From positions 695,001 through 759,000 of the forward strand of contig NZ_JOMJ01000003.1 of the NCBI RefSeq assembly GCF_000711295.1: DNA of 64,000 bases. Reading direction: 5' to 3'. Source of the DNA: Desulfohalovibrio reitneri. Its GTDB lineage: Bacteria; Desulfobacterota; Desulfovibrionia; Desulfovibrionales; Desulfovibrionaceae. The notes beneath the pieces were generated by a model, which was not told where the DNA came from, ran no database searches, and saw only the letters and a list, made by a program, of their open reading frames with translations. This document shows positions 15,875 through 19,102 of the stretch, piece by piece; the first letter of the stretch is position 1, and each line of letters opens with the position of its first letter. A program made the translations under genes and the position numbers.

Positions 15875-16695
15875 AAGGACCTCGGGATGAAGGCGCGGTG
15901 GACCTGCTGGCCATCGAGAACCTGGAAGTCGTCTACAACGACGTTGTGCTGGTGCTGAAGGGCTTGTCCCTGCGCGCGGCCAAGGGACGCATCACCGCCT
16001 TGCTGGGCGCCAACGGAGCGGGCAAGTCCACCACCCTCAAGGCGGTCTCCGGGCTCTTGCACAGCGAGGACGGCAAGGTAACGGACGGCAGGGTGCTGTT
16101 GGACGGCCAGCCCATCCACGGCAAGCCGCCGGAAAGCATCGTGCGGCGCGGCGTCTTCCAGGTCATGGAGGGCCGCCGCATCTTCGAGGATCTGAGCGTG
16201 GAGGAAAACCTGCTCTGCGGGGCCTACTCCCGCCCCAGAGGGGAGTTCGCCCGGTCCGCCGAGCGGGTGTATGAGTACTTCCCCCGTCTGGCCGAGCGAA
16301 AGGGGCAGCTGGCCGGGTACATGTCCGGCGGGGAGCAGCAGATGCTGGCCATCGGGCGGGCGCTCATGGCCCGGCCGGGCCTGCTCTTGCTGGATGAACC
16401 ATCCCTGGGGCTGGCCCCCATGCTGGTGGAGGAAATCTTCGGCATCATCCGCCAGATCAACCAGGAAGAGGGCGTGACCATCCTCCTGGTGGAGCAGAAC
16501 GCCCGCGCCGCCCTGCATATCGCCGAACACGGCTACATCATGGAGTCGGGCCGGATCGTCATGGACGGTCCGGCCGCCTCCCTGCTGGACAACCCGGACG
16601 TGCAGGAATTCTACCTGGGCATGGGACACGGCGGGGAGAAACGCAGCTATCGCGACGTGAAGCATTACCGCAGGCGCAAACGTTGGCTGGGATAG
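15859..16695 (+). CDS. livF: Branched-chain amino acid-type ABC transporter ATP-binding protein LivF
   Basis: A 278-aa ATPase, partner of LivG. Walker A GANGAGKST, signature MSGGEQQM, Walker B LLLLDEPSLGLAP and H-loop LLVEQN are present. The C-terminal tail (YRDVKHYRRRKRWL) is a basic extension seen in LivF proteins encoded beside PaaK-like ligases. The first ATG overlaps the binding-protein gene by 16 bp; a GTG at 15898 with AAGG 4 bp upstream is an equally good start and would remove 13 unconserved residues. Confidence 0.9.
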   Translation: MARTLEGPRDEGAVDLLAIENLEVVYNDVVLVLKGLSLRAAKGRITALLGANGAGKSTTLKAVSGLLHSEDGKVTDGRVLLDGQPIHGKPPESIVRRGVFQVMEGRRIFEDLSVEENLLCGAYSRPRGEFARSAERVYEYFPRLAERKGQLAGYMSGGEQQMLAIGRALMARPGLLLLDEPSLGLAPMLVEEIFGIIRQINQEEGVTILLVEQNARAALHIAEHGYIMESGRIVMDGPAASLLDNPDVQEFYLGMGHGGEKRSYRDVKHYRRRKRWLG

Positions 16696-16703
16696 GAGGA
16701 CGC

Positions 16704-17960
16704 ATGGCCGATCTGGAGCGCAGGAAGGGTTTTTATGGCGACCGGGAGCGCGAATCCCCGGTAATGCGGGCCGAACGGCAGTGGGTGCTGCTGGAAAAGC
16801 TCATCCGCAGGGCGTACGAGGGGTCGGCGGAGTTCAAGTCTCGGCTGGCCGGAATCGGCGCCAAGCCCGGGGACATCCGTTCCATTGAGGACTTCCGCCG
16901 TCTGCCGGTTCTGCCCAAGAAGGACCTGCTCGCGCGGCAGTGTTCGGGACCCGGCCTGGGCGGCATGCTGACCACGGAGCCCGGGCGGCTGGGCCGTATC
17001 TACCAGTCGCCCGGCCCCATCTACGACCCGGAAGGACGCGGGCCGGACTACTGGGGCTGGGCCGAGGCTTTCTTCGCCGCCGGATTCCGCCAGGGGGATG
17101 TGGTTCAGAACACCTTCTCCTACCACCTCACTCCGGCGGGACTCATGCTGGAGGAACCGCTGCGGGCCATTGGCTGCGCCGTCATTCCCGCCGGGCCCGG
17201 CAACACGGAAAAGCAGATCGAACTCATGACCGATCTGCCGGTCACAGGCTTCGTGGGCATGGCCTCGTACCTGCGGGTCATCGCGGACAAGGCGGCGGAA
17301 AAGGGGCTGGACCTGTGGAAGGACTTTTCGCTGGAATGCGCCTTTGTGGCTGCGGAGCGGCTTTCCGAGTCGATGCGTTCGGAGCTTGAGTCGGATTTCG
17401 GCATGCTCATCCGCCAGGGCTACGGCACGGCGGACGTGGGCTGCATTGCCTACGAATGCCTGGAACTGGGCGGCATGCACCTGACCTCACGGGGGCTGGT
17501 GGAGATATTGGACCCTGTGAGCCGCGAACCAATGAGTGCGGGGGAGATCGGCGAGGTGGTATTCACCCCCTTTAGCGAGGAATATCCGCTCATCCGCTTC
17601 GCCACCGGCGACTTGTCCTTCGTGGTGGATTCCGAGTGTCCGTGCGGTCGCACCTCCCCAAAGCTGGGCGGGATCCAGGGCAGGGTGGACGACACCGCCA
17701 AGGTCAAGGGGCAGTTCATTTATCCTTCTCAGGCGGCCGAGGTGTTGGAGCGATTCCCGGCGGTGACGGCCTGGAGGCTGGTGGTGGACAACCCCGGCGG
17801 AAGGGATCGGCTCCGGCTGCTTGTGGATGCCCGGGAAGGGCTGGACGAGAAGGCTTTGGTGCGGGGCTTTCAGGAGGCCTGCAAGCTGCGGCCGCTGGTG
17901 GAGCGGGTCGAGGGGCTTGAAGAGGGTCCCAGGTTGCGCGACGAACGCGAGTTTGATTGA
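16704..17960 (+). CDS. Phenylacetate-CoA ligase (PaaK)-like enzyme
   Basis: A 418-aa member of the PaaK branch of adenylate-forming ligases, expected to make an aryl- or acyl-CoA. The ATG at 16704 follows an AGGAGG Shine-Dalgarno that overlaps the livF stop. The N-terminal RERESPVMRAERQ and the C-terminal GRTSPKLGGIQGRVDDTAKVKG and YPSQAAEVLERFP follow the PaaK pattern. The usual phosphate-loop SSGTTGxP is not visible; the equivalent region reads IYQSPGPIYDPEG. It may belong to a divergent subgroup with altered nucleotide contact. Last gene of the operon; a strong hairpin follows. Confidence 0.82.
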   Translation: MADLERRKGFYGDRERESPVMRAERQWVLLEKLIRRAYEGSAEFKSRLAGIGAKPGDIRSIEDFRRLPVLPKKDLLARQCSGPGLGGMLTTEPGRLGRIYQSPGPIYDPEGRGPDYWGWAEAFFAAGFRQGDVVQNTFSYHLTPAGLMLEEPLRAIGCAVIPAGPGNTEKQIELMTDLPVTGFVGMASYLRVIADKAAEKGLDLWKDFSLECAFVAAERLSESMRSELESDFGMLIRQGYGTADVGCIAYECLELGGMHLTSRGLVEILDPVSREPMSAGEIGEVVFTPFSEEYPLIRFATGDLSFVVDSECPCGRTSPKLGGIQGRVDDTAKVKGQFIYPSQAAEVLERFPAVTAWRLVVDNPGGRDRLRLLVDAREGLDEKALVRGFQEACKLRPLVERVEGLEEGPRLRDEREFD

Positions 17961-17993
17961 ATCCCGTCTTCTTTCAATTGCCGAAAAAGAGAA

Positions 17994-18020
17994 GGGTGCC
18001 CCGGATTATCCGGGGCACCC
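17994..18020. terminator. Bidirectional terminator between the ligase operon and hesB
   Basis: An 11-bp perfect stem GGGTGCCCCGG/CCGGGGCACCC around ATTAT. On the minus strand it is followed by TTCTCTTTTT, a good intrinsic terminator for hesB; on the plus strand it closes the Liv/CoA-ligase operon. Confidence 0.85.
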
Positions 18021-18045
18021 TTCGCGCTTTCACCGTGGCGACTGT

Positions 18046-18366
18046 CTAGCAGGCGCAGGAGCCGCCCGAGCCGCAGCTCGAGGCGCAACCGCCGCCGCCC
18101 AGCTCCAGGTTGGAATTCACCTGGAAGCCGAGGTAGGACATGTCGATGGTCACGGGTTGGGCTTTGTCGTAGAGTTCCTTGTCCATGACGAAGGTGTAGC
18201 CGTTGTTCTCCACCTTTTCGTCGGTATCACGCGGCTCATCCAGAGCCAGCGAAAGCCTCGGGCCTGCTCAACCGCCGGTGGCGAGATACACGCGGATGGG
18301 AGAGACCTCCTTGTCCGCGAAGTACTTGTCCAGTTGCTCCTTGGCGGAGTCGGTGACTTCGATCAT
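18046..18366 (-). CDS. HesB/IscA-like selenoprotein, UGA-encoded Sec at position 33
   Basis: A 106-residue protein of the HesB-like (seleno)protein family (TIGRFAM TIGR01911 type), related to A-type Fe-S scaffold proteins. The reading frame runs from MIEVTDSAKE (ATG at 18366, AAGGAG Shine-Dalgarno) through ATGG, then an in-frame TGA at 18270-18268, and continues AGPRLSLALDEP to a TAG at 18046. The TGA sits exactly where IscA proteins have the first cluster cysteine (GG-C-SG). The C-terminus is Cys-rich (CASSCGSGGSCAC) where IscA has CGCG. A SECIS-type hairpin lies directly downstream of the TGA. Ordinary gene finding would truncate this gene at 32 codons. Expected role: Fe-S or metal handling. 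Confidence 0.92.
18230..18251 (-). promoter_or_regulatory. Bacterial SECIS hairpin of the HesB selenoprotein
   Basis: In mRNA sense: CGC, bulged U, GGCUC, loop UGGAU, GAGCC, GCG. The loop begins 25 nt after the UGA, within the 16-37 nt range typical of bacterial SECIS elements, and has a G among its first two bases. The bulged U below the upper stem matches the E. coli fdhF element. It lies inside the coding region, as bacterial SECIS elements must. Confidence 0.88.
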
Positions 18367-18401
18367 CAAGTTCTCCTTGCAGATTGCTCTTTGTCCTATG
18401 A

Positions 18402-18565: not shown

Positions 18566-19102
18566 ATGGAAGCAGATCGCGTCATCGCCTCGGGCGAGGA
18601 AATGGAAGGCATGATCCAGCGGCTGGCCGAGGAGATCGCCTCCGGCCACGGGGACCTCACCGAACTGGCTCTGGTGGGCATCCAGCGCAGGGGGGCCGAC
18701 CTGGCCGACAGGCTGAAAACCATGCTGGACGGCAGGGGGAACGTCCGGGTGCCCCTGGGCAAGCTGGATATCAACCTCTACCGCGACGACTGGACTTCCC
18801 TGTCGGTACAGCCCTTCATCCAGTGCACCGAGATTCCCTTCGACCTGCCCAGCTACCGCATCATTTTGGTTGACGACGTGCTCTTCACCGGCCGCACCAT
18901 CCGGGCCGCCCTGGAGGCGGTGCTCGATTACGGCCGACCCAAGAAGGTGGAACTCCTTGCCCTTGTGGACCGGGGGCACCGCGAACTGCCCATTCAGCCG
19001 GATTTCGTGGGGACAACCGTGGAAACCGGCCTGGACGACCGGGTCAATGTTTTAGTGCGGGAGCGCGACGGCGAGGATTCCATCAAGGTGGTGCGCGCCT
19101 GA
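18566..19102 (+). CDS. pyrR: Bifunctional pyrimidine operon regulator / uracil phosphoribosyltransferase PyrR
   Basis: A 178-aa PRTase-fold protein. In Bacillus it binds pyr mRNA to attenuate transcription and also converts uracil plus PRPP to UMP. The ATG at 18566 follows GAGGAGGAA and gives the usual family length; a longer upstream frame has no support. The PRPP-binding motif ILVDDVLFTGRTIRAALEA (about residues 95-113) and the LDINLYRDDW segment are conserved. No pyr biosynthetic gene is adjacent, so here it may act mainly as a salvage enzyme. Confidence 0.93.
   Translation: MEADRVIASGEEMEGMIQRLAEEIASGHGDLTELALVGIQRRGADLADRLKTMLDGRGNVRVPLGKLDINLYRDDWTSLSVQPFIQCTEIPFDLPSYRIILVDDVLFTGRTIRAALEAVLDYGRPKKVELLALVDRGHRELPIQPDFVGTTVETGLDDRVNVLVRERDGEDSIKVVRA

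Follow-up and report, generated by a model that had tools for sequence, protein, structure and literature searches.

The window, a 64,000-nucleotide stretch of the Desulfohalovibrio reitneri genome, harbors on its minus strand a gene (18366-18046) whose reading frame is broken by a single TGA at codon 33 and by no other stop, as had been proposed for this locus and as translation bore out. The product, M...GGUAGPRLSLALDEP...GGGGCASSCGSGGSCAC, comprises 106 residues with U at position 33. The gene and the features around it are as follows.

18046..18366, minus strand: selenoprotein gene of the IscA/HesB family, encoding 106 aa with residue 33 as Sec; ATG at 18366-18364, stop codon TAG at 18048-18046
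18268..18270, minus strand: in-frame UGA as selenocysteine, codon 33; falls on the first cluster-cysteine site of IscA, with TGC/TGT in Cys paralogues
18230..18251, minus strand: bacterial SECIS hairpin; bulged U at 18248, stem GGCUC/GAGCC, loop UGGAU at 18242-18238
18373..18378, minus strand: Shine-Dalgarno-like AAGGAG, 6 nt upstream of the ATG, read from the sequence
18049..18096, minus strand: Gly/Cys-rich C-terminal tail (residues 91-106), of low model confidence; C94, C98, and C104 do not vary among 41 aligned sequences
17991..18023, minus strand: intrinsic-terminator-like hairpin, 3' of the selenoprotein gene, separating it from the convergent gene
18566..19102, plus strand: pyrR-like gene, divergent neighbor, found beside the family locus in 53 relatives' loci
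16683..17960, plus strand: phenylacetate-CoA-ligase-like gene, convergent neighbor, found beside the family locus in 14 relatives' loci

The terminator-like hairpin lies inside the 85-nt gap that separates the stop codon from the convergent gene. The divergent neighbor, which we take to be pyrR-like, and the convergent neighbor, presumably related to phenylacetate-CoA ligases, were both named by recognizing their sequences and not by HMM; genes of the same two kinds flank the family locus in relatives too.

Family assignment and fold of the product

The window protein matches the NCBIfam model NF038090 (IscA_HesB_Se) over its full length (126.8 bits against a curated cut-off of 85, profile positions 1-101 of 101), with no structural difference from that family found, and it also exceeds the cut-off of the Pfam family PF01521 (Fe-S_biosyn; 35.0 versus 26.3 bits). 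The original prediction had named a different model, TIGR01911 (HesB_rel_seleno). The UAGP of the window protein does fit the UxGP motif given for that family (PMC13188914), but the match, which covers residues 4-76, reaches 37.4 bits (34.9 in a six-frame search) and stays under the curated cut-off of 66.35; membership of TIGR01911 was therefore rejected, NF038090 being the model that was passed instead. With IscA, SufA, and ErpA (PF01521, TIGR02011, TIGR01997, NF010147), the protein shares the fold, the PF01521 match, and the site of the first cluster cysteine, occupied here by Sec33, but it falls below every equivalog cut-off (23.7, 22.7, and 25.7 bits for IscA, SufA, and ErpA versus 150.6, 136.2, and 117) and has a variable Gly/Cys tail in place of the CGC motif. 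The closest named example is DVU_1382 of Desulfovibrio vulgaris, predicted as a HesB-family selenoprotein and listed with TGA (PMC1914089), a likeness drawn from the published listing and not from sequence. The window gene is an ordinary member of the IscA/HesB selenoprotein family, known since at least 2006-2007, and adds one well-supported member to it.

A structure model built from 41 relatives has a mean pLDDT of 79, with residues 91-106 below 50 and the tail at about 42. Its best PDB matches are IscA and SufA structures (E values of 1e-6 to 1e-4), a [2Fe-2S] IscA among them at 1e-6. In the profile alignment, GG[U/C]xGP is aligned with GGCSG of Aquifex AQ_1857, the first cluster-cysteine site, which is where the TGA had been predicted to lie. 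The alignment of 41 sequences likewise has Sec at the first cluster position, together with three invariant tail cysteines (C94, C98, and C104) and no fixed CGC, and 53 homologous Cys genes encode Cys (TGC or TGT) at the aligned Sec position. Some Sec copies (L105, L107, L110, L115, and L117) have one residue fewer around Sec, for example AGUGGP for GGUxGP.

Both parts of the protein belong to the family, as had been claimed: beyond the full-length NF038090 match, identity to the closest relative is 88% before the UGA and 84% after it at the amino acid level. The corresponding dN/dS values are about 0.09 and about 0.2. With this identity and dN/dS, the second half is conserved and not decayed, so the decay in relatives that had been singled out as evidence against a selenoprotein did not occur.

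The SECIS hairpin and the selenocysteine machinery

The hairpin at 18251-18230 of the minus strand, CGC-U-GGCUC[UGGAU]GAGCC-GCG, has its loop 25 nt downstream of the UGA. Folded alone, the 24-nt element reaches -12.7 kcal/mol (z = -3.0, with 1 of 200 shuffles as good), whereas the 61-nt stretch around it has a different fold of lowest energy, with a stability no greater than that of shuffled sequences; no Rfam match was obtained at the site, which leaves the element without support from a curated RNA model. Folding of a single sequence is weak evidence for a SECIS. Because the 61-nt stretch is energetically ordinary, comparative evidence was sought, and it is this evidence that carries the SECIS claim.

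For the comparison, 128 copies were collected: from the window itself, from 11 loci in named genomes, and from 60 loci in genomes of the host's bacterial family. One locus present under two identifiers (L049, L078) was counted once. All 67 UGA copies keep the bulged U, five stem pairs (GGCUC/GAGCC), and a UGGAY loop, the stem pairs all being standard and a few of them G-U, although such counts come from related sequences and are hence not independent events. The predicted hairpin, with its bulged U, its five-base GG loop, and its distance of 25 nt past the UGA, was seen here, and its core throughout the UGA genes. A compensatory change in mid-stem, C-G to U-A, is found in three Desulfacinum genes, which are near-identical and therefore represent one event.

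The hairpin codes for LALDEP, a peptide largely common to the Cys copies. Codon choice was compared over the 64 distinct UGA genes whose protein fits the search pattern, a set outside which the Desulfacinum genes fall, as they have Val where the others have Ala. All 64 UGA genes use GCT for Ala, versus 6 of 53 Cys genes (p = 2e-26, a value that is too small because the sequences are related, although the contrast spans many genera); the Leu codon is CTG in all 64 versus 34 of 51 Cys genes, and the Glu codon is GAG in all 64 versus 21 of 38. Most Cys genes are without the SECIS hairpin, but a SECIS-like remnant occurs in some of them, with an intact core in L060 and one or two bases off in the others, a likeness that follows in part from the shared peptide. 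Taken across these genes, the comparison points clearly to RNA-level selection on the hairpin in UGA genes.

In the host genome (3.39 Mb, 96.9% complete), selA, selB, tRNA-Sec, and selD all score above their cut-offs, with 603, 353, 82.5, and 342 bits, respectively. All four genes had been expected elsewhere in the genome, and the lack of Sec machinery that was to count against the prediction was not encountered. The selD gene (G000:C3:436642-437562, L121) contains one in-frame TGA and is therefore probably itself a selenoprotein gene. The tRNA-Sec gene (G000:C4:191301-191390, L011/L123) is followed about 150 nt downstream by an IscU/NifU-like gene (191543-191869) of 142 aa, which scores 54 bits to the IscU model, under the cut-off.

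It has also to be considered that the UGA is a true stop, in which case the locus would be a pseudogene or yield a peptide of 32 residues, and the family match beyond the UGA would be a decaying remnant. The standard code without recoding would indeed end the frame at residue 32; nevertheless, the downstream part is conserved and under purifying selection, the SECIS is conserved with synonymous constraint, and the Sec machinery is present in the genome, so that this reading is scarcely credible and was rejected.

Among the matches listed for the 81 host-family genomes that are at least 90% complete, selA occurs together with the UGA form in 69, neither is found in 7, selA is without a listed UGA form in at most 5, and the UGA form is without selA in none. 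The UGA form is without a selA match in three incomplete genomes, as gaps would give. Genes of the NF038090 type are found in other families of the host phylum as well, mostly as UGA forms. One host-family genome (G001) has 9 NF038090 matches, none of those listed with TGA, a possible expansion.

Tandem Sec/Cys pairs in relatives and the single copy of the host

Sec and Cys copies stand side by side, 64 to 397 nt apart, in 48 of 62 host-family loci; the loci were picked from the match list of the host-family genomes, often because two matches adjoined, and the fraction is therefore no unbiased rate. The Sec copy comes first in 36 of the tandem loci and the Cys copy in 11, while one locus has an added Cys copy; in the nearest relatives (L049, L072, L075, and L079), the Cys copy directly follows the Sec copy. 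A tree of 126 copies (95 columns) requires 20 to 21 changes between Sec and non-Sec, of which the well-supported branches alone force 12 to 13, which puts the number of Sec/Cys switches at about 12 or more. Repeated duplication with a Sec-to-Cys change and gene conversion between neighbors may each lie behind the pairs, and both fit. The changed gene order favors several duplications. That some Cys copies keep a SECIS remnant, and that copies outside the family are all Sec, favors Sec as the older state. Two Sec-to-Cys events had already been counted for the HesB-like family by Zhang et al. in 2006 (PMC1794560), so many more in one bacterial family are an extension and not a new kind of finding. 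In the open-access literature, a search for the tandem pair or for the function of DVU_1382 returned only the listing of DVU_1382 as a HesB-family selenoprotein, and the pair may be described elsewhere.

Unlike many relatives, the host genome is without the tandem Cys paralogue. Only one family copy appears among the matches listed for it, and a permissive PF01521 search found only the window gene; the Cys copy is therefore absent in the host assembly, with some doubt left by the missing 3% of the genome. Less expected are the frequent pairing of Sec and Cys copies in relatives, set against the Sec form alone in the host, and the recurrence of the switches. The same permissive search detected no canonical IscA, SufA, or ErpA in the host genome, and none of 99 host-family genomes gave a PF01521 match above 34 bits. 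Since the IscA_HesB_Se family lies near the Pfam cut-off, the PF01521 search brings in only 11 of the 99 and informs solely on strong canonical carriers; it suggests that such carriers are generally missing in the host family. Tentatively, and with the odds rather against it, the A-type carriers may have been replaced in this family by the HesB-like Sec/Cys pair, which would have arisen repeatedly by lineage-specific tandem duplication and a change of one Sec to Cys, or been kept alike by gene conversion. If so, the host genome would depend on the selenoprotein alone for the A-type-carrier step.

Proposed role of the selenoprotein

On balance we favor a functional, SECIS-directed IscA/HesB selenoprotein that probably serves as an Fe-S or iron carrier, the Cys copy of relatives probably being an isoform or dimer partner. 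Judging from the conservation and from the Sec machinery of the genome, the hairpin 25 nt further on, still within the coding region, would direct SelB and tRNA-Sec to insert selenocysteine at UGA-33. The product is predicted to fold like IscA/SufA, and Sec33, replacing the first cluster cysteine, could meet C94, C98, and C104 of the flexible Gly/Cys tail; Sec33 and the tail would then probably bind iron or an Fe-S cluster and pass it on in the manner of an A-type carrier. The Cys copy that stands in tandem in relatives is probably a selenium-independent isoform or a dimer partner. Because Sec occupies a cluster-ligand position in an IscA fold, an Fe-S or iron carrier appears to be the likeliest role. 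Against it stand the variable Gly/Cys tail that replaces the C-terminal CGC of IscA and the lack of an Fe-S gene operon at the locus, where the neighbors are pyrR-like and CoA-ligase-like. A homologue in M. maripaludis was identified by mutagenesis and 75Se labeling, and the hesB-like mutant was reportedly unimpaired in N2 fixation, its role being called unclear there (PMC11097638).

The flexible, Cys-rich tail would also suit a redox selenoprotein, a thiol or peroxide oxidoreductase and not a cluster carrier, with a selenenylsulfide between Sec33 and one of the tail cysteines. Redox sites are where Sec is typically found, and a review from 2026 presumes that most uncharacterized selenoproteins have redox roles (PMC13188914); however, the UxxC or CxxU motif is absent, UAGP in an IscA fold being found instead, and the Sec position is that of a cluster ligand in IscA, which makes a redox function unlikely, if conceivable. 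Sec and the Cys-rich tail could alternatively bind soft metals or metalloids (Hg, As, Cu) for storage or detoxification, as some selenoproteins have been proposed to be metal binders (PMC13188914). We regard this as improbable: neither of the conserved neighbors (pyrR, CoA ligase) is a gene for metal resistance, and the selenoprotein gene is near-universal in the host family among the matches listed, not patchy.

The tandem pairs constitute a repeated natural experiment, with two similar proteins, one Sec and one Cys, and the same peptide with and without a SECIS, in one genome; in a tractable Desulfovibrio, deleting either copy by itself could test what selenium contributes to an IscA-like protein. 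A third tandem paralogue, which lacks the cluster cysteine (FLSxSGPRLEL) and has a Cys-containing tail, is present in five loci (L050 3892-4194, L051 3891-4196, and L074 3571-3876 on the plus strand; also L080 and L087 on the minus strand), and in the tree of 126 copies these third copies group in a single clade with a long branch.
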